Positions 2,113 to 44,598 of a stretch of DNA of 48,360 bases are shown here, one piece after another. The position numbers were made by a program, and so were the translations under genes. The notes under the pieces are model-generated. The model had not been told where the DNA came from. It worked only from the letters and a program-made list of their open reading frames with translations, and did no database searches. The stretch's first letter is position 1, and every line of letters starts with the position of its first letter. The DNA comes from Clostridia bacterium. GTDB taxonomy: Bacteria > Bacillota > Clostridia > Oscillospirales > CAG-272. The DNA is taken from contig JAFULC010000030.1 of the NCBI GenBank assembly GCA_017483305.1, positions 1-48,360 on the forward strand, in the 5' to 3' direction.

Positions 2113-2141
2113 TTGACAAAAGCAGAAAGATGTAGTATAAT
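2113..2141 (+). promoter_or_regulatory. Consensus sigma-A promoter of the degV-fakA operon
   Basis: TTGACA at 2113-2118 and TATAAT at 2136-2141 are separated by exactly 17 bp, a perfect match to the housekeeping consensus. The leader to the first gene is about 60 nt. Confidence 0.85.
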
Positions 2142-2206
2142 TAATAAGTTATAGGGCAACTATGCGCATAAGCTTTAATGATACATTTTGAAACGGAGAA
2201 CATATT

Positions 2207-3142
2207 ATGAGCGATTATGTTATTCTCGCCGACGTGACGTGTGATATGTCAAGCGAGATAAGAGAATATTTCGGTGTAAAGGACTACGTAACGGGTCACG
2301 TCCATTTCAGCGATGGCCGCGATTTCGTAACCACACTTGATTGGAGCAATATTTCCCGCGAGGACTTCTACAAGTCTCTCTCGTCCAAGAGCATCAAGGT
2401 AAGCACCGCGCCCGCAAGCCCTGAAGAATATTATGAGTGCTTCAGAAGTTATGCAAGCAAGGGTTATGATATCCTCAGCATATCTATATCTGCGAAAGTA
2501 AGCTCTACCTTTGAAGCGGCAAAAAAAGCGGGGGAGAGAGTAAAGGCAGAGTTCCCGGACAGAGAAATCTATTGCCTTGATTCTATAAGAATGTCGGGCT
2601 CGTTCGCACTTCTGACCGCCTATGCCCACGAGATGAAAAACGAGGGCAAGTCGATGCGTGAGGTCATATCCTGGCTCGAGGAGAATAAGCACAGGGTGCA
2701 TCAGATGGGCCCGATCGACGACCTTATGTTTGTCGCACGCCGCGGCAGAATTTCGACGGGTAAGGCGATAATGGGTAGCTTCGCAGGCGTTAAGCCTATG
2801 GGCGATTGCAACAGCGAGGGCTACGTCACCGTGCTGACAAAGGTGAAGGGAATCAAAAAGGCTCTTACAACCACGGTTGCCTATATCAGACACGCCGCAA
2901 CCGATATTGAAAACAACTACGTTTACATAACGCACAGTAACAGAGAAGCCTACGCTACCGAGCTTAAGGCAATGATCGAAAATGAGCTGCATCCCAAAAA
3001 GGTATTCCTCTGCGACGTTTTCGCGGCGAGCGGAACGAATATCGGACCGGGAATGGTCTGCGCCGCATTTATGGGAGAGGCTATCTCCGAGGACGGCTCC
3101 AAGGAAAAAGAATATATGAATAAGGCAACCGCAGGCTGCTGA
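2207..3142 (+). CDS. DegV family fatty-acid-binding protein (FakB-like)
   Basis: This 311-residue protein has the DegV fold signature: an N-terminal ADVTCDMS segment (residues 8-15, matching the usual D-S-x-C-D start), STAPASPEE at 66-74, a Ser-rich SAKVSSTFEAA lipid-head-group loop at ~95-105, and VARRGRIS later in the chain. DegV/FakB proteins bind one fatty acid and present it to the kinase FakA for phosphorylation at the carboxyl group. The partner kinase starts 12 nt downstream, which strongly supports this role here. It is the first gene after a perfect promoter; GGAG lies upstream of the ATG. Which fatty acid it prefers cannot be read from the sequence. Confidence 0.88.
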   Translation: MSDYVILADVTCDMSSEIREYFGVKDYVTGHVHFSDGRDFVTTLDWSNISREDFYKSLSSKSIKVSTAPASPEEYYECFRSYASKGYDILSISISAKVSSTFEAAKKAGERVKAEFPDREIYCLDSIRMSGSFALLTAYAHEMKNEGKSMREVISWLEENKHRVHQMGPIDDLMFVARRGRISTGKAIMGSFAGVKPMGDCNSEGYVTVLTKVKGIKKALTTTVAYIRHAATDIENNYVYITHSNREAYATELKAMIENELHPKKVFLCDVFAASGTNIGPGMVCAAFMGEAISEDGSKEKEYMNKATAGC

Positions 3143-3154
3143 TAAAGGAAGCTT

Positions 3155-4777
3155 ATGTTAGAACAAATAAACGGATCGTGCTACAAGGGCATGATCGCAT
3201 ACGGAATCAACAATCTGGATAAGCATTGCTCGACCGTCAACGACCTTAACGTTTTCCCCGTGCCCGACGGCGATACGGGCACGAATATGGTAATGACAAT
3301 GAGGAACGGAATGAGCTCTATCGAGAGCTCGACCGATTCGCTCTCCGCAATATCCCAGAGATTTGCAAACGCCACAGTGTATGGCGCGAGAGGCAACTCG
3401 GGAGTCATAGTGTCGCAGTTTTTCAAGGGCGTTAGCGAGGGCTTGAAGGACTTGAGCGAGGCAGATTGCCTTGCGTTTTCAAAAGCGCTTGATAAGGGCT
3501 GTGAATACGCGTATAACTCCGTGGCAAATCCCGTGGAGGGAACGATACTCACTGTAATCAAGGACGCTACGGCGACCGTAAGAGCAAATATTGAAAATAT
3601 ACATAGCATGGAGGAGCTTGTCTCCAAATTTCTTGCAGAGGCGAGAATATCGCTCGACAATACTCCCGAGCTTTTACCGATACTGAAAAAAGCAGGTGTT
3701 GTCGATAGCGGAGGCGCGGGCATCGTCTATTTTTTCGAGGGAATTCAAAAGTACCTCAACGGAGAGAAGATAGAGGCCGTCGAGTCGAAAACCGAGACAC
3801 AGTATATCGATTATTCGGCATTTGATAAAAACAGCAGCTTCGAATACGGCTATTGCACCGAGCTGCTTATTCAGCTCACCTCCGACAAGGAAGAATTTGA
3901 CTATGCCGATTTCGGCAAGGAGCTTGGAAAACTCGGCGAATCGATAGTAACCTCCTTCGAGTCGGATAAGGTCAAGGTCCATATCCATACCTTTACCCCC
4001 GAAAAAATACTGACCTATTGCCACCGCTTCGGCGAGTTTCTGTCTCTCAAGATAGAGAATATGTCGGTTCAGCACACACAGACAACTCAAAAATATCTCT
4101 GTGCCGAGGCGCAGAATACGGGCAGCTTTGCCGTTGTTGCGGTAGCACCTAACGCGTTGCTTCAGAATATGCTCGCAGAAATGGGAGCGGACGTGGTGAT
4201 TTTAAGCTCCGAGTCGCCCTCGTCTCAGGAGTTTATCGAATCGTTCGAGCAAATAGACAAAAAAGAGATATTGGTTTTTCCGAATAGCTCGAATTCTATC
4301 CTCAGTGCAATGCAGGCAGGAAGTCTCTATAAAAAGGCAAAGATCACCGTCCTCAATTGTCGCTCTATACCTAAATGCTACTCGTCGCTCGCGCTTATCG
4401 ACTTCGAGAGTGATATAAACACCACTGTAAGCACTGTCAACGACACGATCGGCAATATTTACGAGGTCTCGATAATCCACGCATCGAAAAACATAGCGTA
4501 CGGCGATAAGACCGTCGTTAAGAACGATTATTTTGCCCTCTCGGGCGATGACATTCTCGAAACGGGTGACCGCTTTGACGAGGTCGTGCTCAGAACAGTC
4601 AGGGAAGTGACAAGCAAAAAGGATTGCAGCGTGGTCAATATGTTTTACGGCAAAAATGCACCGACCGATCAGCTTTACGGCGTTGCCGACGAGATCGGGA
4701 GAGCTTTCGATTGCCTTGAGACATATATGATACCCACGCAAGACAATATATACGATCTTATACTTTCTTTTGAGTAA
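3155..4777 (+). CDS. fakA: Fatty acid kinase catalytic subunit FakA (DAK2 domain, YloV family)
   Basis: At 540 residues it has the usual length for FakA/YloV. The N-terminal kinase (DhaL/DAK2-like) domain carries PVPDGDTGTNM at 35-45, with Asp38, Asp40 and Asn44 placed to hold two Mg2+ ions, and the YGARGNSGVIVSQ segment that contacts nucleotide. The middle and C-terminal parts match the FakA regions that dock FakB. The enzyme turns FakB-bound fatty acid into acyl-phosphate, the substrate of PlsY or PlsX in phospholipid synthesis. It is translated from AAGGAAG about 5 nt upstream of the ATG and is 14 nt from the next gene, so it is probably co-transcribed with the transporter and acyltransferase. 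Confidence 0.92.
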   Translation: MLEQINGSCYKGMIAYGINNLDKHCSTVNDLNVFPVPDGDTGTNMVMTMRNGMSSIESSTDSLSAISQRFANATVYGARGNSGVIVSQFFKGVSEGLKDLSEADCLAFSKALDKGCEYAYNSVANPVEGTILTVIKDATATVRANIENIHSMEELVSKFLAEARISLDNTPELLPILKKAGVVDSGGAGIVYFFEGIQKYLNGEKIEAVESKTETQYIDYSAFDKNSSFEYGYCTELLIQLTSDKEEFDYADFGKELGKLGESIVTSFESDKVKVHIHTFTPEKILTYCHRFGEFLSLKIENMSVQHTQTTQKYLCAEAQNTGSFAVVAVAPNALLQNMLAEMGADVVILSSESPSSQEFIESFEQIDKKEILVFPNSSNSILSAMQAGSLYKKAKITVLNCRSIPKCYSSLALIDFESDINTTVSTVNDTIGNIYEVSIIHASKNIAYGDKTVVKNDYFALSGDDILETGDRFDEVVLRTVREVTSKKDCSVVNMFYGKNAPTDQLYGVADEIGRAFDCLETYMIPTQDNIYDLILSFE

Positions 4778-4791
4778 TCTGGAGGATTAAA

Positions 4792-6141
4792 ATGACTAAC
4801 AAGTTAACTAAAAAATGGCAGCTCGTGCTGTACGGATGCTCGGGATTGGGCATCAATATGCTCGGAATGATAGTTGGAACCTATCTCTGTAGCGCGTTGC
4901 TCGTGGGCGGCTTTGAGGACAACGTAGAGAATTGGACGTATCTCAACCGCGACCTCGTAGTAGCAGGACTCTGGGCAACCTTGATCCTCGTTTCCAAGAT
5001 AGTAGACGGAGTTATCGATATTCCTTTTGCATCCTGGCTCGACAATCTCCGTACCAAGTGGGGACGTCGCCGTCCCGCACTCCTCGGTGGTATGATAATT
5101 ACGATGGCAGTTTATTGCCTCTTTCTCATCCCGATCGATAAAAGCGCAACCATGCTTAATACTATCTGGTTCGCGTTTCTTCTGATGGTATTCTACTCCG
5201 CATACACCCTCACGATGCTTTGCTATTATGCAACCTTCAGTGAGATAGTAGAGAAGGACTCCGACCGCGTTTTCCTTTCCAACACAAAATCTATCTGCGA
5301 CGTCGTATATTTCTCGATGAGCTTCGCCCTCGTGCCCGTATTCGTGGGCATGGGAGTTAATATCCGCTACGTTGCGCTCATCTTCCTGCCTCTCGCGCTC
5401 CTTATGCTGATTCCTATGTTTCTTATCAAGGAAAGCTCTACCAAGGACGGCGTAAGGGACGAAAACGGCGAAATGGTAGCAAAGAGAGAAAGAGTAAGCC
5501 TTGTCAAGTCCTTTGCCTTCTCCTTCAAGAACAAAAAATATCTTTTCTGGTTGCTCATCCTCTCTGTAATGAACTTTGGCTTGCAGCTCTTTTTGAGCGG
5601 CATCAACGAGTTCTTCTCGACCACGGGAATAAATATGACCTTTGTTATGGCGTGCTCCTTTGCACCCGTTCCGTTTACATTGATTATTTATAATAAACTT
5701 ATCAAAAAATACGGGCTTCGCGTTGCATATCAATATGCGCTTGGAATGTTCTCGCTTGGTATGGGATTGATGTTCTTCTGTCAGCTTTTGACCGATAGCT
5801 ATCTGCTTCCGTTTGCGATATTCTGCAGCTTGCTTAATTCATTCGGTATAGGTGCATTTTTCTCCGTAACGTATATGATCCCCTCGCAGCTTGCAAAGGA
5901 AGCCACCGACGCAGGTGAAAAGGGAGCAAACGCGATGTATTTCGCGGTGCAGGGTCTTTTCGAGGGCGTTTCCGCAGGTCTCGCATCGGGAATTATGCTT
6001 GTATATCTCAAGCAGATTGAACGTACCGACCTGATTACCTGCATAGTCGCGGCGGCTTGTCTTGCGGCTTTGGTTATAGCCTTCTTTATGCCCAAATCGA
6101 TCGCCCTGCTCGGAAAGACCGCTAAAAAGGACACAGAATGA
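4792..6141 (+). CDS. GPH/MelB-fold MFS transporter, possibly for a lipid
   Basis: This 449-residue protein is predicted to have 12 membrane helices. Helix II holds two acidic residues four apart (Asp72 and Asp76 in VDGVIDIP), followed by LRTKWGRRRP. This matches the cation-site Asp pair and the RSRWGKxKP loop of MelB, so it belongs to the glycoside-pentoside-hexuronide:cation symporter family. Known members carry sugars, but the animal lysophospholipid carrier MFSD2A has the same fold. Its stop codon overlaps the start of a PlsC-type acyltransferase, and the operon begins with FakB/FakA. I infer that a lysolipid or fatty-acid-containing substrate is at least as likely as a sugar. GGAGG precedes the ATG. 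Confidence 0.8.
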   Translation: MTNKLTKKWQLVLYGCSGLGINMLGMIVGTYLCSALLVGGFEDNVENWTYLNRDLVVAGLWATLILVSKIVDGVIDIPFASWLDNLRTKWGRRRPALLGGMIITMAVYCLFLIPIDKSATMLNTIWFAFLLMVFYSAYTLTMLCYYATFSEIVEKDSDRVFLSNTKSICDVVYFSMSFALVPVFVGMGVNIRYVALIFLPLALLMLIPMFLIKESSTKDGVRDENGEMVAKRERVSLVKSFAFSFKNKKYLFWLLILSVMNFGLQLFLSGINEFFSTTGINMTFVMACSFAPVPFTLIIYNKLIKKYGLRVAYQYALGMFSLGMGLMFFCQLLTDSYLLPFAIFCSLLNSFGIGAFFSVTYMIPSQLAKEATDAGEKGANAMYFAVQGLFEGVSAGLASGIMLVYLKQIERTDLITCIVAAACLAALVIAFFMPKSIALLGKTAKKDTE

Positions 6142-6791
6142 TCTACTATCTTTTCTGGTGGCTTTGCATTATCACAGGCTATCCTTATCAGCTCCTGCTT
6201 TTCAAGCGCAGAACCTTTTACGAGGATAAAAGCGTCCAGTCCCTTAAAATCAAGGGCGGCGCGTTGATAATTTCAAATCACTACCACTTTTACGACTATA
6301 TGATGAATATGTTTGCCGTAACCCCGAGAAAGCTTAACGTAATTTCATCCGAGCTCGGCTTTAAGAACAAGCTTCTCGCGTTCGGAATGCGGTTTTTCGG
6401 CGGCATTCAGGCAAACAGAATAACGAAAAGCATGCGCTTTATGGATACCGCCGCAGATGTCATCCGAAAGGGAGGGCTGGTTCAGATCTTCCCCGAGGCA
6501 AAAATAACCGACGACGGTACGATAAAGCCCTTCAAGCACAGCTATATCGTTATTGCCCACAGATCAAACGCTCCGATCATTCCGATAATCACCGACGGAA
6601 ATTACGGTTTTACGAAAAGAGCAAGCATCATCGTCGGCAAGCCGATATACGTCTCGGATTACATAAAAACAGACCGAAGAACTCCCACCAGAGAGGAGCT
6701 CGAGGCGGTCAACGAGATAATTTATTCCAAGGTCCTGTCACTCAGAAGGGAGCTTGAGGATAAAAAAGCGGCATTAAAAAAGAAAAACTGA
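6138..6791 (+). CDS. PlsC-like 1-acylglycerol-3-phosphate acyltransferase family protein
   Basis: The 217-residue protein shows the acyltransferase block I motif NHYHFYD (catalytic His48 and Asp53, the HX4D arrangement) and block III FPEAK at 118-122 (usual FPEG). A hydrophobic N-terminus (~1-22) should associate it with the membrane. The family transfers an acyl chain to lysophosphatidic acid or another lysolipid. It overlaps the transporter gene by 4 nt (ATGA), which indicates coupled translation and suggests a shared substrate. The Gly-to-Ala change in block III is a small departure from classic PlsC, so acceptor specificity is open. Confidence 0.85.
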   Translation: MIYYLFWWLCIITGYPYQLLLFKRRTFYEDKSVQSLKIKGGALIISNHYHFYDYMMNMFAVTPRKLNVISSELGFKNKLLAFGMRFFGGIQANRITKSMRFMDTAADVIRKGGLVQIFPEAKITDDGTIKPFKHSYIVIAHRSNAPIIPIITDGNYGFTKRASIIVGKPIYVSDYIKTDRRTPTREELEAVNEIIYSKVLSLRRELEDKKAALKKKN

Positions 6792-6805
6792 AAGGACACA
6801 CGGGA

Positions 6806-7807
6806 ATGTTAGAGCTTACCCCCTTATACATCAGCCTCTCGCCAACGCTTCAAGTGGTGGCGTGGATAGTCGGCGTTATGGTCGTGCTTGGCATACTTAT
6901 GTGGCCCTTGTCGGTAATCGTCGCATCGTTTTGTGTCTACGATCAGACCCTTCGCCGCAAGACTAAGGAGCAGTGGGGCAGAGGTCCTTCGGATTCCGAT
7001 GCGAATACGATGAAGATGGATAGCATAGGAATGATTTGGTACGAGGAAAACTCGTCGCATAAAAGGGAAGTCAGTATCACAAACGACGGACTTAGGCTTG
7101 CGGGCGAGTATTACGATTTCGGTAACGACCGATGCGTCATCATTTTCCCTGGAAGAACCGAAAGCCTCAGATACGGCTATTATTTCGCAAAGCCTTACGT
7201 CGAGTCGGGCTACAATTTGCTTCTCATCGACTCCCGCGCTCACGGGCTCAGTGACGGCGAATTCAATACGGTAGGATTTGAAGAAAGCAAGGATGCTATC
7301 GCGTGGACTAAGTTCCTTTGTGATGAGCTGAACGTCAAATCTGTGCTTTATCACGGAAATTGCATCGGATCTGCCACGGCGCTGCTTGCCCTGACCTCCG
7401 AGGATTGCCCCGACTGTGTCGAGGGCTTAGTAGCAGAGGGAATGTTTGCGAACTTCGGCGAATCTATGAAAAATCACATTATAGAGCACAAAAAGCCGAT
7501 CTTTATGGTCTACGGAATGATCAATTTCTGGATGAAGCATTACACGGGACACACGATGGACTTCGGCCCGATAAACGTCATCGACAAAATGAATAAGCCC
7601 CTGCTTATGTTGCATAGCAGGGAGGATATATATTCAACCCCCGAATACGCGCAAAAGCTCTATGATCTCGCATCAAGCGAGAATAAGGAGATCGTCTGGT
7701 TTGAGCACGGCAGACATTCAATGCTCCGTGTGACCGACACCGAAAGATACGACGATGCGATAAAGAGCTTTCTTGCTCGCACCTTTGAGTCCGTAAGGAC
7801 TGAATAA
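6806..7807 (+). CDS. Membrane-anchored alpha/beta hydrolase with Cys nucleophile
   Basis: Residues ~15-45 form one or two membrane segments; the rest is an alpha/beta-hydrolase fold. The oxyanion region is IIFPGRTES (~112-120), the strand-4 turn contains DSRAHGLSDG, and the nucleophile elbow is HGNCIGS with Cys186 where most relatives have Ser. Asp274 (SRED) and His304 (GRHS) complete a likely Cys-Asp-His triad. The nearest architectural relatives are the YqkD/BAAT-like serine hydrolases; a Cys nucleophile is also known in dienelactone hydrolase. Lying 14 nt after the acyltransferase and in the same operon as fakA, it may cleave an acyl ester or thioester at the membrane. Substrate unknown. 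Confidence 0.78.
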   Translation: MLELTPLYISLSPTLQVVAWIVGVMVVLGILMWPLSVIVASFCVYDQTLRRKTKEQWGRGPSDSDANTMKMDSIGMIWYEENSSHKREVSITNDGLRLAGEYYDFGNDRCVIIFPGRTESLRYGYYFAKPYVESGYNLLLIDSRAHGLSDGEFNTVGFEESKDAIAWTKFLCDELNVKSVLYHGNCIGSATALLALTSEDCPDCVEGLVAEGMFANFGESMKNHIIEHKKPIFMVYGMINFWMKHYTGHTMDFGPINVIDKMNKPLLMLHSREDIYSTPEYAQKLYDLASSENKEIVWFEHGRHSMLRVTDTERYDDAIKSFLARTFESVRTE

Positions 7808-7830
7808 CCTCAGAAAAGGAGAATTTTATT

Positions 7831-8241
7831 ATGTTGTGTAGAAAATGCGGTGCGCAAATGGACGATAGTGCGCGCTTTTGCTCCGCTTGCGGACACGATC
7901 ACGCCACCGAAGCACCCGAAACAGTAAAAGAGCCTCTCAATGTCGATCCCGCGTATCAGGAGGCAAAGGACAGACTTTCCAATCAGATTCTCACGTGGGG
8001 AATACTCAGTATTGCCTTCGCATCTACCTTCTATTTTTCGCTTATCGGATTTATCTTTTCCTTCGTGACGAAGAGCAAGGTCATGCAGTATACCACTCAT
8101 ATCGGGCCCGTGTCGTATAAGTCAAAAGTAGGACGCGATCTTGGTAAGGCGGGCTTTATCGTAGGACTTATTCTGACCATAATCTGCACGCTTTACTTGT
8201 TTATCCTTTTTATGGCAATTTTAGGTATGATGCTCGCATAA
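7831..8241 (+). CDS. Zinc-ribbon membrane protein, function unknown
   Basis: The 136-residue protein starts with a compact zinc ribbon: Cys3, Cys6, Cys17 and Cys20 (CxxC-x10-CxxC). A polar linker follows, then two hydrophobic stretches at about 54-77 and 105-135. This zinc_ribbon_2-plus-membrane layout is common in Clostridia without an assigned role. It lies 23 nt after the hydrolase, has a strong AAAGGAG site, and is the last gene before a strong terminator, so it is probably part of the lipid operon. It could be a small scaffold or regulator of the membrane enzymes upstream. Confidence 0.75.
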   Translation: MLCRKCGAQMDDSARFCSACGHDHATEAPETVKEPLNVDPAYQEAKDRLSNQILTWGILSIAFASTFYFSLIGFIFSFVTKSKVMQYTTHIGPVSYKSKVGRDLGKAGFIVGLILTIICTLYLFILFMAILGMMLA

Positions 8242-8285
8242 TTCAAATCGGGAACGGTTTTTGCCGTTCCCGATTTGAATTTTAA
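8240..8285 (+). terminator. Strong hairpin closing the fakA operon
   Basis: An 18-bp perfect stem, 8240-8257 with 8264-8281 (core TCGGGAACGG/CCGTTCCCGA), has a 6-nt T-rich loop and a short TTTT tail. It overlaps the last base of the zinc-ribbon gene's stop codon. Confidence 0.85.
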
Positions 8286-8321: not shown

Positions 8322-8350
8322 TTGACATAGAGCAATAAGTGTGATAAAAT
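8322..8350 (+). promoter_or_regulatory. Promoter of the LtaS-like gene
   Basis: TTGACA at 8322-8327 and TAAAAT at 8345-8350 have a 17-bp spacer, giving a leader of about 45 nt. Confidence 0.8.
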
Positions 8351-8403: not shown

Positions 8404-10470
8404 ATGAAAAAAAACATAAATACACCTGCCGAGCAGGGTGCATCGGGCACGATAAAGGCGCGCCTTGCCGCGCTTGGTCGCAAGCTTTTTGACTTCGACC
8501 GTGTGCACGCGCATCTTTTGATGGCATTAATCTTAACCTTGGTGATCGAGTGCCTTTCAAGACGCTCGTTTATCGGAGGATTTGCGTTTATAATTGAGAA
8601 TCCGATCGCCTTTGCGGTCAATTATCTCATTGCGCTCGTTCTCCTTCTGCCCACGCTCCTGATACCGAAGCGCATCGCAAGCGTAGCGCTTGTGTCAACG
8701 CTTTTGTTCGCGCTCGGCGTTATTCAGTTCTTCGTGCTTATCAATCGAGTCACGCCTCTTTCGGCGGTTGACTTTTCGATCTTTTTCAGTATAATTACGA
8801 TCATAGACGTGTACTTCAAGCCCTACGAGCTTGCCTTGATGATCCTTGCGATCCTCGCGGCAATAGCGGGCATCGTCCTGCTCTTTATCAAGACGAAATC
8901 CCACGGCATTAAGCTCAAAAGCTTCCTTATAAGCTTTTTCAGTGCCACAGCCGCGCTTGTCGTAGCAATCGTGGTAGGATTTCAGACCAACCACCTCACC
9001 ACACGCTTCCCGAATCTCGCGGATGCCTATAACGATTACGGATTTGCCTATTGCTTTTCGTTGAGCGTGTTTGACAGAGGAGTAAACCGCCCGAACGATT
9101 ACAGCGAGGACGAGATGACCGAGATCCTCGATCAGATATACGGCGAGAGCGAAGGGGAGGACTCCGACGACGAGCAGAAAAAGCCCAACGTCGTTTTCGT
9201 CCAGCTCGAATCCTTCTTTGACGTAAAATATATAAACGAGCTGACCTATTCAGAGGATCCCGTACCCAATTTTACGGCGCTCAAGGAGCAGTACCCGAGC
9301 GGCTTTCTTACCGTGCCTGTTATCGGCGCAGCTACGATCAACGTAGAATTTGAGGTGCTCACGGGAATGAGAATAAGAGACTTCGGCGCGGGCGAGTACC
9401 CCTACCGAACGATATTGTCCGAAAATACCTGCGAGACTATCGCGTATGACCTTTTGGCATCGGGCTACCGAACCCACGCGATACATAACAACGAGGGAAC
9501 CTTCTATCAGAGAAACGAGGTCTACAAGAACCTCGGATTTGAGAGCTTCACCTCGATCGAGTATTTCCCGAACCCCACCTACAATCCGTACGGCTGGGCA
9601 GAGGACGCGATGCTCACCGACGAGATATTGCATCTCCTTTCCTCAAGCGAGGAATCTGACTTTGTTTTCACAGTAGCGGTGCAGTCTCACGGCGATTATC
9701 CCGACGATTACGTTGCCGTCGAGGGTGACGTTACCGTTACAGGCGGAGCAAGTAACGCCGCAACGTTGAGCAGATATAATTATTATGTCAGCCAGCTCCA
9801 CGCCGTCGACGAATTTGTAAAGGCTATATACAACGAGGTAATGGCTCTTGATGAGGATACGATCCTGGTCTTATACGGAGATCATCTGCCCACCTTGGTC
9901 AAGGACAGCGGCATCACACTCTCTGAAATGAACGATTTCCAGACCGAATACATCATCATCCCCAATTTTGAGGTCGAGTCCGAAACCCTTACGGATAAAG
10001 ATATTTACGCATATCAGCTTTTCCCGAGAGTAATGGATATAATCGGCAACGATGAGGGCGTTATCAATATGTTCCACCGTGTTTGCAGCGAGGACGAAGA
10101 CTACGCGGATAAGCTCACGAAGATCGAATACGACGTGCTCTACGGTGAAAAATACGCGTACGGTGACACCACATACGATTCTATCGACTATATGACGATG
10201 GGTAGCCGCGACATCAGTATCACCGACGTTTACGTCGAGGGTGATTACGTCTACGTCAAGGGCGAGAATTTCACACCGTACAGTGTGATCTTCTGCGACG
10301 ATGACGAAAGAGATACCGAGTATCTCGACTCAAATACCCTCAGAATCCCCAAGAAAACTACCTTCTTCGACTTTGCAAAGACCGATAAGGTCGAGGTCTA
10401 TCAGGTTACCGTAAAAGGTGAGCCGATGTCGAAAACGGAAGAGTTCATTGTTTCTGGAAACGGGAAATAA
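8404..10470 (+). CDS. LtaS-family phosphoglycerol transferase (sulfatase fold)
   Basis: The 688-residue protein has an N-terminal block of about five membrane helices (~36-195) and an extracellular sulfatase-like domain (~260-560). Catalytic landmarks of the lipoteichoic acid synthase family are visible: metal ligand Glu269 (QLES), nucleophile Thr311 (AATINVEFEVLTG), and the GDHLP motif with Asp493 and His494. The family moves glycerol-phosphate from phosphatidylglycerol onto a growing polymer or glycolipid. Residues ~598-685 form an extra beta-rich tail that looks IPT/TIG-like (ITDVYVEGDYVYVKGENF), which ordinary LtaS lacks. The gene stands alone between its own promoter and terminator. The exact acceptor is not predictable. 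Confidence 0.88.
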   Translation: MKKNINTPAEQGASGTIKARLAALGRKLFDFDRVHAHLLMALILTLVIECLSRRSFIGGFAFIIENPIAFAVNYLIALVLLLPTLLIPKRIASVALVSTLLFALGVIQFFVLINRVTPLSAVDFSIFFSIITIIDVYFKPYELALMILAILAAIAGIVLLFIKTKSHGIKLKSFLISFFSATAALVVAIVVGFQTNHLTTRFPNLADAYNDYGFAYCFSLSVFDRGVNRPNDYSEDEMTEILDQIYGESEGEDSDDEQKKPNVVFVQLESFFDVKYINELTYSEDPVPNFTALKEQYPSGFLTVPVIGAATINVEFEVLTGMRIRDFGAGEYPYRTILSENTCETIAYDLLASGYRTHAIHNNEGTFYQRNEVYKNLGFESFTSIEYFPNPTYNPYGWAEDAMLTDEILHLLSSSEESDFVFTVAVQSHGDYPDDYVAVEGDVTVTGGASNAATLSRYNYYVSQLHAVDEFVKAIYNEVMALDEDTILVLYGDHLPTLVKDSGITLSEMNDFQTEYIIIPNFEVESETLTDKDIYAYQLFPRVMDIIGNDEGVINMFHRVCSEDEDYADKLTKIEYDVLYGEKYAYGDTTYDSIDYMTMGSRDISITDVYVEGDYVYVKGENFTPYSVIFCDDDERDTEYLDSNTLRIPKKTTFFDFAKTDKVEVYQVTVKGEPMSKTEEFIVSGNGK

Positions 10471-41558: not shown

Positions 41559-44500
41559 TTATCTGCTTTTTCTATGAGTCTTGGATCTGAGTGAATTAAG
41601 CTTAGGGGTCTCAACGGATTTGTCCTCGACTACGAAGAATTCCTTGACAAGCTTAATCTTTCTGAGTCTACGCTCAAATATGAGAATGAGCACAAAGCCC
41701 GCGATAGCAACTATCGTAATAACGATACCAACCTTGAAAGCGGAGGAGCGGTAAACGAATCTGACCGTATGGTCGCCCGCATCGTCAACTCTGAACGCTA
41801 TAAGTGCATCAAGCACCTCAAAGGTCTCAACCTTTTCACCGTCAACGTAGACCTGCCAGCCCTTATCGTAGGGAATGGTGGTCATAACAACCTGATCGTC
41901 TCTATAGGTATTGAGAGTACCCCTGATATCGTCCTCCTTGTATTCCTCATCAATAACAAGCTGATTTTCCTGAATACGACCGAATACGTCGGCAAGCGCC
42001 TCGGTATCGATGTAGTAAACGAAGGAATCGATCTGCTTCGTGTAGAAATTTTTGCTATCGTTGTTGATAGTAACGGTGAACTTGTATTCGGTTCCATCAA
42101 TCGCACCAAGCTCAACTATTCTCTCGTTACATTTGTCAAGCGAGCTTGTGTTGTCGAGAATGGGATGGGGGGAGGAAAGCTTTATGGCACGGGAGTGGTA
42201 TGCGGGGAGATAGAGGTAAAGCATTGCGCCCTCGGGTACGGTATAGGAGTAGGTTATTGTACCGGCTTTTTCTCCCGTAGAGGTGTACTTGTTGTGCTTT
42301 GAGATTACCGCCGACGAGCATCCCGACGTCTTGGGGGCTCCGTTCTGCTTTGCAGGCTTGAAGACCTCAACTTCTTCTCCGAGGATCGCGCTGAGAATAG
42401 CGTTAACTCTCGCAAATGGTGTAGTGTAGCCCTCGGGATTGTTCAACTTATCGTAGTTGGCACTGTTGGGATCGAGATAGGAGTTTTCATCCTTCATATT
42501 AACGTCGAATATCTCGTCGGTAGCGGCAAATGCCAGCGAAAGATGGAAGGGATTGTAATAAACGTTAAAATCGTTGCTGGAATAATATTTGGACTGACCG
42601 GCGGTGTATTTAGATCCCGCAGTGGTCTGCTCAATAAGCTCATCCACGGTGATACCGAGACGCTCAGCGTAGTCCTCGCCGGTTAAGATCGGGTCTCCGT
42701 AAACCGGAGAATAATCTCTGTCGGTTATGATATATTTAAGACCGAGAAGTGAGTCTGTTACGGCGTTTCCACCCTTATACTGCGAGTAGTTGGACTTTGA
42801 ATGATATCCAAGCAGATAAAGGAAATCAATAGTGCTCTTGTTGAGCGTGGAGGACGAATTGGAAAGACCGCGAAGACCAAGCGCCATATCGTCGTTTGTC
42901 TTTCTGTAATAGGTCTTTTCACACCGATAGAACGAGTCGTCGTACTCGTGAAGCGTGTCGGTTATCGGCCGCATCATTCCGTTAAAATCATTGTAAGAGG
43001 AGTAAGAGGTGTATCCAACGTCGCTGTCGAAATCGTTGATGTTGCTAAGACCGCTGAAGAAGAGCTCTCCGCAGATGACGCAAAGCAGCACCGCGGCAAC
43101 GATATCCTTGTTCTTTGCTCTTGCCATCAAGGCGATCAGTGAAACGTATGCGATCAGACAAACGATCGTAAGCATAACCGTTGCGAATGGGTGTATTGAG
43201 AATTTGCCGTCCTTGGGACCGTACGTCAGAGCCTCGAGCTTAGCGATGAAATCTTCCTCGGAATTCTGAAGAATGATCACGTAGAAGAAAACGATCGCCG
43301 CTACCGCCGCAACACTCGCCGCTCCGATCGACCTGATCTGCTCGAATGCACGGAATGCAAGGAAGATCAGGAAGAAGCATAGCATAAAGCTGAAGCGCGC
43401 GTTAAGCCACTGGGGCTTCTGGAAGCCGTGCCAGATGAGGTACAGAGAGGAGATCATAAAGCTTAAAACAAAGACGAGGATCAGCACACCGCTTGCGATC
43501 TTCTCGCGCGCCGTGAACTTTCTGGAGCAGAAGAACAGAGGAGCGAGCAGAACGGTAAGCAGACCGCAATACACAAAGGGAAGTCCGTCAATTCTGACCG
43601 TGTCGTAGGACGAGGGGAGAAGCTTGAAGAAAAGATCGTAGAAATCAAACTTTAAATTGATCTCCCAGGACGGATCGGTAAACTCGTTCTTACCAAACTG
43701 GAGCGAATAGTACGCGCTAAGCAGTATGACCGCCGCTATGCAGACCGCGATCACCGAGAAGAATCCAACGCGCACGAGAGACTTGATAAAATGCTTGTCC
43801 TCGTTGCGGGGATTGTTCACACCGTTGTCCTTGTAAGCAAGCATATAGAAGAAATAGTAGAGCAGCACGAATATACAAACCATATATCCGATATAGAAAT
43901 TACTTGCAAGAGTAAGCGCAAGGAAGATAACGAAGACCTTGTATTTTCCATGCTTTATAAGCTCCTCAAGTCCGTATGTGACCAAGGGCAGCCACATAAC
44001 CGCATCCATCCACATGGTGTTGTTCTGATGAACGACGCAGTACGCCGACAAAGCGTACATTATCGCGAAGGAAACGACTGCAAGCTTATTTTTGTTTATC
44101 GAATGCTTGTGCAGATAGAACGCCATCGTAGCGCCGCAGATCGAAGCCTTCAGCATAAACATCACAAGCAAAAATTCCTGAATCTTGTCAGCAGGGAAAA
44201 GCAGAACGAGATAAGACAGAGGACTTGCGATATAATACGCATAAATTCCGAGAAATTCTCCGCCAAGCTGACGTGACCACGAATAAAGCAGACTTCCGCC
44301 CTCAAGCACGGTGCGCCTGAGCTGCTCGAAGAAGTAGACGTACTGACCGTTCAGGTCAAGCACGAGTACAGTACTGTTGCCAAAGGGATAAATTCCACGC
44401 GCAAGATATATCAGAAAGAATATGACCGCAGGAATAAGTGCCGCCAGACAAATATAGCCGTATTCCTTTTTGATCGCTGCAAGCTTCTGTCCGAAGGTCA

Positions 44501-44579
44501 GCTTTTCTCCACTTATAGCAGCCCCATCGGAAATGAGCACGGCAGGCTGCTTGTTTTGTTCTTTTGCTTTGTTTTTCAT
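41559..44579 (-). CDS. YfhO family membrane protein
   Basis: From ATG 44579 (GGAG 5 nt upstream; five codons shorter than the longest frame) the protein has 1006 residues. A cytosolic lead (~1-40) is followed by about a dozen membrane helices to ~475, a large extracellular beta-rich domain, and a last helix (~945-970). The first extracellular loop has LDLNGQYVYFFEQLR, and SPLSYLVLLFPAD follows, as in YfhO/DUF6044 GT-C-like proteins. Bacillus and Listeria relatives take part in sugar modification of teichoic acids, so it may act with cell-wall polymers such as those made by the LtaS-like enzyme. It lies 19 nt after DUF951 and is probably co-transcribed with ruvAB. Confidence 0.85.
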   Translation of the reverse strand: MKNKAKEQNKQPAVLISDGAAISGEKLTFGQKLAAIKKEYGYICLAALIPAVIFFLIYLARGIYPFGNSTVLVLDLNGQYVYFFEQLRRTVLEGGSLLYSWSRQLGGEFLGIYAYYIASPLSYLVLLFPADKIQEFLLVMFMLKASICGATMAFYLHKHSINKNKLAVVSFAIMYALSAYCVVHQNNTMWMDAVMWLPLVTYGLEELIKHGKYKVFVIFLALTLASNFYIGYMVCIFVLLYYFFYMLAYKDNGVNNPRNEDKHFIKSLVRVGFFSVIAVCIAAVILLSAYYSLQFGKNEFTDPSWEINLKFDFYDLFFKLLPSSYDTVRIDGLPFVYCGLLTVLLAPLFFCSRKFTAREKIASGVLILVFVLSFMISSLYLIWHGFQKPQWLNARFSFMLCFFLIFLAFRAFEQIRSIGAASVAAVAAIVFFYVIILQNSEEDFIAKLEALTYGPKDGKFSIHPFATVMLTIVCLIAYVSLIALMARAKNKDIVAAVLLCVICGELFFSGLSNINDFDSDVGYTSYSSYNDFNGMMRPITDTLHEYDDSFYRCEKTYYRKTNDDMALGLRGLSNSSSTLNKSTIDFLYLLGYHSKSNYSQYKGGNAVTDSLLGLKYIITDRDYSPVYGDPILTGEDYAERLGITVDELIEQTTAGSKYTAGQSKYYSSNDFNVYYNPFHLSLAFAATDEIFDVNMKDENSYLDPNSANYDKLNNPEGYTTPFARVNAILSAILGEEVEVFKPAKQNGAPKTSGCSSAVISKHNKYTSTGEKAGTITYSYTVPEGAMLYLYLPAYHSRAIKLSSPHPILDNTSSLDKCNERIVELGAIDGTEYKFTVTINNDSKNFYTKQIDSFVYYIDTEALADVFGRIQENQLVIDEEYKEDDIRGTLNTYRDDQVVMTTIPYDKGWQVYVDGEKVETFEVLDALIAFRVDDAGDHTVRFVYRSSAFKVGIVITIVAIAGFVLILIFERRLRKIKLVKEFFVVEDKSVETPKLNSLRSKTHRKSR

Positions 44580-44598
44580 TGTATCTCCATTCACAGTC

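Follow-up and report, generated by a model that had tools for sequence, protein, structure and literature searches.

Within the LplT-Aas complex, lysophospholipid is flipped by LplT and then acylated by Aas, as described in an excerpt of PMC11416262. A second described route is the FakAB pathway of Gram-positive bacteria (excerpts of PMC9136124 and PMC12594616), and two further points of comparison are MFSD2A, the animal Na+-dependent lysophosphatidylcholine carrier, and MelB with the other GPH symporters. Here we describe a six-gene operon that encodes FakB-type and FakA-type proteins, a transporter, and a PlsC-type acyltransferase in an uncultured Clostridia bacterium of the lineage Oscillospirales; CAG-272. 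The window analyzed is a whole contig of 48,360 nucleotides (JAFULC010000030.1; C21) from a 2.01-Mb, 97% complete assembly (GCA_017483305.1), which we refer to as the host genome (G000). A role of the transporter cluster in lipid salvage by fatty-acid auxotrophs is well supported, both by the conserved neighborhood of the transporter in 80 relatives and by the scarcity of FabF-type ketosynthases in the genomes that carry it. Salvage of lipids was also the reading of a first-pass annotation of this DNA.

The operon shares features with each of the described systems. Like LplT-Aas, it places a major facilitator superfamily (MFS) carrier beside a PlsC-type acyltransferase, whose FPEAKIT motif corresponds to FPEGRIT in Aas, and acyl ligases are present in the fuller form of the locus. 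Unlike LplT-Aas, its transporter is not an LplT by sequence, PlsC and the ligases are encoded by separate genes, and the cluster adds FakA and FakB, LRAT, and α/β-hydrolase proteins. The transporter resembles MFSD2A in its predicted fold, a likeness that extends equally to MelB, and in Asp/Asp/Thr cation positions, but it is bacterial, is 12 to 14% identical to MFSD2A, and is known here from its sequence and a model. It differs from MelB and the GPH symporters at 11 sugar-site residues. Both subunits of the FakAB pathway are present with the kinase motif kept, although the proteins score below the FakA and FakB1 equivalog cutoffs, a His of FakB is replaced by Asn, and the FakA is one of three in the host. 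By its parts, as judged from sequence, the operon is neither LplT-Aas nor MelB; by analogy, it is likely to be LplT-Aas-like in function.

The operon and its neighborhood in relatives

The operon comprises the following features, all on the plus strand:

2113 to 2141, +: sigma-70-type promoter, TTGACA-17-TATAAT (12/12 match)
2207 to 3142, +: FakB-type DegV protein, fatty-acid-binding subunit (311 aa; DegV PF02645, E 1.4e-48; Asn replaces His before GPG)
3155 to 4777, +: FakA-type fatty acid kinase (540 aa; Pfam Dak2, FakA-like_M, and FakA-like_C; PDGDTG present)
4792 to 6141, +: MFS_2 transporter of the GPH/MelB-MFSD2A fold (449 aa; PF13347, E 2.4e-27)
6138 to 6791, +: PlsC-type acyltransferase (217 aa; PF01553, E 4.6e-18; motifs HX4D and FPEAKIT)
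6806 to 7807, +: α/β-hydrolase-fold protein with a long N-terminal helix (333 aa; Pfam Hydrolase_4/Abhydrolase_1; Cys186-Asp274-His304)
7831 to 8241, +: zinc-ribbon small membrane protein (136 aa; PF13240)
8240 to 8281, +: terminator-like perfect hairpin with a short T-run (-30.7 kcal/mol, z -8.1)

The six closely spaced plus-strand genes of the first-pass annotation were confirmed, including their open reading frames (ORFs), the Asp72/Asp76 pair of the transporter, and spacing: the successive gaps are 12, 14, -4, 14, and 23 nt, the negative value being the 4-nt overlap of the transporter and PlsC genes. The promoter is indeed a perfect match and is beyond chance, yet it is not special, as the window holds four such perfect matches (0.02 expected). 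Similarly, the hairpin after the operon is very stable, with a 19-bp perfect stem whose stability was reached by no shuffle, but its T-run is short and a terminator-rule scan of the window did not place it among its terminators. All six genes occur in identical order in another genome of the same genus (G104), with protein identities of 80 to 98% for the first five and 69% for the sixth. The sixth gene, for the zinc-ribbon membrane protein, has a similar counterpart in the same run of 30 of the 80 relatives. Downstream of the terminator lies an LtaS-like sulfatase-family gene (8404 to 10470) with its own near-perfect promoter at 8322; it adjoins the operon in G104 as well and occurs in the transporter run of one of the 80 relatives (L059). 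The same contig encodes a 1,011-aa YfhO-family membrane protein (41562 to 44594), a family that we take to be linked to lipoteichoic acid glycosylation.

Scanning GTDB species genomes with a 10-row transporter alignment yielded 165 relatives, the best 80 of which provide the neighborhood counts given here. Genes in these 80 loci were labeled by BLAST best hits to reference proteins, with family checks on representatives. Their record titles name mostly Clostridia, Oscillospiraceae, and Lachnospiraceae and a few Bacilli, and many give the rumen, another part of the gut, or animal feces as the source, while others give none. Within the host family, 30 of 118 genomes contain a transporter match, eight of them with E < 1e-60. 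The same-strand run around the transporter includes FakA in 77 relatives, FakB in 76, an α/β hydrolase in 75, a fusion of AMP ligase and carrier domain (AT) in 47, an acyl carrier protein (ACP) in 42, an AMP ligase in 42, and LRAT in 39. Many contigs end early, and we also counted the 34 loci whose flanks reach 9 kb or more upstream and 4 kb or more downstream; all 34 contain FakA, FakB, and the hydrolase, and 32 contain PlsC, with AT in 29, ACP in 23, AMP ligase in 22, and LRAT in 20. The direct upstream neighbor of the transporter is FakB in 62 of the 80 and FakA in 14; directly downstream stand FakA (61), PlsC (8), or AT (8). The first-pass annotation had tied the transporter to FakA, FakB, and PlsC, and this search bears it out. 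Rarity beside fakA or plsC, which it had named as counting against its reading, was found neither for fakA nor for plsC within the run; as a direct neighbor, however, plsC occurs in just 8 of the 80, at distances of -4 to +7 nt. Chance is excluded for practical purposes as an explanation of this neighborhood.

Of the 80 loci, 49 carry the full island, 8 show transporter-AT, 8 resemble the window in having transporter-PlsC, and 2 take another form; the other 13 read FakB-transporter-FakA, with neither ligase nor PlsC found upstream, and in 10 of these there is little upstream sequence. The usual order of the full island is AT, PlsC1, PlsC2, AMP ligase, ACP, LRAT with a phosphopantetheinyl transferase (PPTase), and a Ser-type hydrolase, then FakB, the transporter, FakA, and a Cys-type hydrolase, often closing with the zinc-ribbon gene. 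Pfam and NCBIfam confirmed the island domains on two representatives (L054 and L056), and characteristic motifs are widely kept: HX4D in 55 of 56 PlsC1 rows, NCEHF in 38 of 41 LRAT rows, and GxSMG in 48 of 51 Ser-type hydrolases. The DSL-serine pattern is found in 4 of 44 free ACPs, and the 25 rows viewed retain Ser as SV or SI. FDxS, presumably an amino-acid motif, is present in only 5 of 49 AT ligases. The LRAT and PPTase-like domains are joined within the island (L056, 12116 to 13102; L054, 5182 to 6219), which unusually couples a thiol acyl enzyme to an activator of carrier proteins. We read the window operon as a compact form of a larger lipid-salvage island, found mostly in Clostridia without detected fatty acid synthesis; neither the larger cluster nor the lack of these synthesis genes in most carriers lay within view of the first-pass annotation. 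None of the papers listed in our searches of the open-licence PMC literature describes the operon or the island.

Fatty acid synthesis in genomes carrying the transporter

Searches of the host genome for FabH and for a FabF-type ketosynthase returned no match, while the genome carries three FakA, five DegV, seven acyltransferase, and two PlsX matches. Five DegV paralogues lie in one 2-Mb genome (L039 to L043), three of them adjoining a FakA. A second Fak locus, on contig C37, reads FakB-FakA-PlsY-PlsC-α/β hydrolase and resembles the normal way of converting exogenous fatty acid into phosphatidic acid. PlsX is encoded there on the same strand, but we did not count it as part of the Fak operon, given a gap of about 0.76 kb and an intervening ORF on the opposite strand. 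Between the two loci, protein identities are 23 to 24% for PlsC and the α/β-hydrolase protein, 25% for FakB, and 38% for FakA. The transporter occupies in the window operon the place that PlsY has on C37.

A FabF-type synthase turned up in 3 of the 50 best-ranked among the 80 relatives, compared with 32 of 118 family genomes and 141 of 196 class genomes (Fisher p of 0.0016 and 3e-18, respectively, with kinship ignored and the carriers not all belonging to the family). PlsX, searched for as a control, was found in 47 of the same 50 genomes, 46 times over the cutoff; judged by this control, the FabF gap is not explained by missing sequence. Within the family only, the difference was not significant (0 of 8 carriers versus 32 of 110 others; p 0.11). 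In the host genus, one genome (G048) has the ketosynthase and FabH and lacks the transporter, and the host and G104 show the reverse. The family sample as a whole has no FabF-type ketosynthase match in 86 of 118 genomes and no FabH match in 98 of 118; from these sequence searches, the host family looks largely auxotrophic for fatty acids. According to an excerpt of PMC12394162, how ruminal bacteria incorporate exogenous fatty acids is largely unexplored.

The transporter and the acyl-handling proteins

The transporter scores 96 bits to MFS_2 (PF13347; gathering cutoff, 27) and 53.6 bits to the GPH model TIGR00792, below its curated cutoff of 231. Its predicted structure has a predicted local distance difference test score (pLDDT) of 88.7. 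The top Foldseek matches of the model are MFSD2A (8d2t, E 4e-10, template modeling score 0.74), but VIA alignment scores MelB above MFSD2A, as the top match, and we dropped the fold as an arbiter between the two. Searched against PDB sequences, the transporter by itself gave no match up to E 1, and the 10-row profile gave a single weak match, to a plant sucrose carrier (E 0.05). The annotation had also drawn a parallel with LplT; as sequence kinship this fails, since hhalign with an 85-row transporter alignment gave a probability of 1.1% against Escherichia coli LplT and 73.7% against MelB, and we rejected homology to LplT.

Positions for the MelB sugar and cation sites and the MFSD2A cation site were taken from an excerpt of PMC8329300. 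Three of the five cation-site positions examined are kept, D72, D76, and T139 of the transporter corresponding to D55, D59, and T121 of MelB. At the sugar site, 2 of 13 residues are kept (Tyr120 and Gln372) and 11 are altered (K18, D19, I22, Y26, D124, W128, R149, W342, T373, V376, and K377). The sugar-site residues are conserved only among MelB orthologues, according to the same excerpt, and their loss therefore rules out MelB itself and not sugar carriers in general. In a tree that took in 12 of the 80 relatives, with three short rows removed and several long branches unsure, the transporter clade was separate from five E. coli GPH carriers. Of the two signs of a sugar carrier named in the first-pass annotation, grouping with sugar symporters was not seen for these five carriers, and MelB sugar contacts were limited to the two kept residues. 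A long-form sister of the transporter, extended C-terminally by about 200 residues, lies between AT and PlsC1 and directly upstream of PlsC1 in three loci (L047, 5595 to 7475; L048, 6899 to 8812; L056, 7123 to 9051; domains checked for L056); neither FakA nor FakB was labeled in the stretches fetched for these loci.

The window FakA has the full domain set (Dak2, middle, and C domains) and PDGDTG, and DGDTG is present in all of 78 rows except two gapped ones. It reaches 480 bits for YloV (TIGR03599; cutoff, 396) and 353 of the 975 bits set for the FakA_VfrB equivalog. FakB lies above the cutoff of TIGR00762 and scores 84.8 of 350 bits for the FakB1 equivalog. The residue before GPG, which as His we take to bind the head of the fatty acid, is His in the three PDB relatives of FakB examined and Asn in the window protein and in 69 of 76 FakB proteins of the cluster. 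This replacement marks the cluster FakB as a branch of its own, for which the ligand is not to be taken for granted.

The acyltransferase has the PF01553 domain and the HX4D motif. Among NCBIfam models it best matches PRK08633 (acyl-[ACP]--phospholipid O-acyltransferase), at E 9e-16 and 57 bits (cutoff, 1221); we take this model of 1,147 positions to represent an LplT-PlsC-ligase fusion family. BLASTP against E. coli Aas found a short match of 47 residues (E 1e-5), in which FPEAKIT aligns with FPEGRIT. The C37 PlsC also matches PRK08633, with 60 bits, and for PlsC1 and PlsC2 of L056 the scores are higher with models of ordinary acylglycerol-phosphate acyltransferases. The likeness to Aas is therefore weak.

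The fifth protein of the operon had been read as a membrane hydrolase that frees fatty acid. The α/β-hydrolase fold holds (model pLDDT 95.5), but the nucleophile is a Cys rather than a Ser: C186, D274, and H304 are invariant (64 of 64), and GxCIG is found in 63 of 65, the remaining two retaining CIG. Because the Cys is invariant, acyl transfer appears at least as likely as hydrolysis.

Proposed mechanism and alternatives

We propose, as the best single mechanism and with about an even chance of being right, that the putative transporter imports a lysolipid that PlsC reacylates. FakB would take up exogenous fatty acid and FakA would form acyl-phosphate, which PlsX, encoded elsewhere in the host genome, could convert to acyl-ACP. 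The transporter, probably cation coupled, would flip a lipid with one acyl chain, such as a lysophospholipid, into the inner leaflet, where PlsC would attach the second acyl chain. The Cys-type α/β-hydrolase protein may carry an acyl group from thioester to lipid or back, or free one. The operon would then do the job that LplT-Aas does in Gram-negatives, with different parts. That PlsY stands on C37 where the transporter sits in the window fits import of the first acylated intermediate in place of its synthesis.

Alternatively, the transporter might face outward: the cluster would acylate a cytoplasmic lipid, and the completed (glyco)lipid would then be flipped to the outer leaflet, in the way that LtaA moves the lipoteichoic acid anchor. 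LtaA is a known Gram-positive MFS lipid flippase (excerpt of PMC10083588), and the LtaS-like gene at 8404 to 10470 follows the operon. However, that gene has its own near-perfect promoter and shares the transporter run in just 1 of the 80 relatives, for which reason we rejected a lipoteichoic acid link through it, and the kept cation residues are those of Na+-coupled importers, though they do not fix direction. We consider outward flipping unlikely.

The ligases of the full island bring up another function. With its AMP ligases, two carrier domains, and LRAT-PPTase protein, the cluster might build a specialized acylated molecule, such as a signal or lipid-like metabolite, that the transporter exports. 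The fold matches of the window α/β-hydrolase protein include DcsB and GrgF, presumably Cys α/β hydrolases acting on carrier-bound chains in polyketide pathways. Nevertheless, 47 of 50 hosts lack a FabF-type ketosynthase match, FakA and FakB are present in all 34 well-covered loci, FDxS is rare in the AT ligases, and the window operon has no ligase or carrier, which together make such a product quite unlikely.

A small water-soluble lipid part, such as a glycerophosphodiester or glyceryl glycoside, might be the cargo, to be acylated afterward by the PlsC enzymes. Two PlsC genes per full island and conserved polar residues in the transporter helices (N22, K166, D170, N272, and Q387) would suit it, but the window has one PlsC with no PlsY beside it and most MelB sugar-site residues are altered; we regard this as improbable. 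That the transporter is an ordinary sugar symporter placed by chance among lipid genes is highly improbable and was set aside, since its MFS_2 membership, top VIA match to MelB, and kept Tyr120 and Gln372 are outweighed by the tight conserved neighborhood, the separate clade, and the altered main sugar contacts.

Lysolipid import with reacylation can be carried further, though only tentatively and with the odds somewhat against the full picture. Clostridia lacking type II fatty acid synthesis may scavenge whole lysolipids through a carrier that is the bacterial equivalent of MFSD2A and use their own acyl carrier proteins to rebuild them, in a Lands-type cycle encoded in one island of 11 to 12 genes, with a FakB whose pocket His has become Asn and a Cys-type α/β-hydrolase protein acting as an acyltransferase.

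For members of this family without a FabF match, the constant gene island offers concrete enzymes and a transporter with which to test how membrane lipids are obtained, and possibly a more tractable bacterial protein that matches MFSD2A in function. Such work would show which lipids of their surroundings the carriers depend on.

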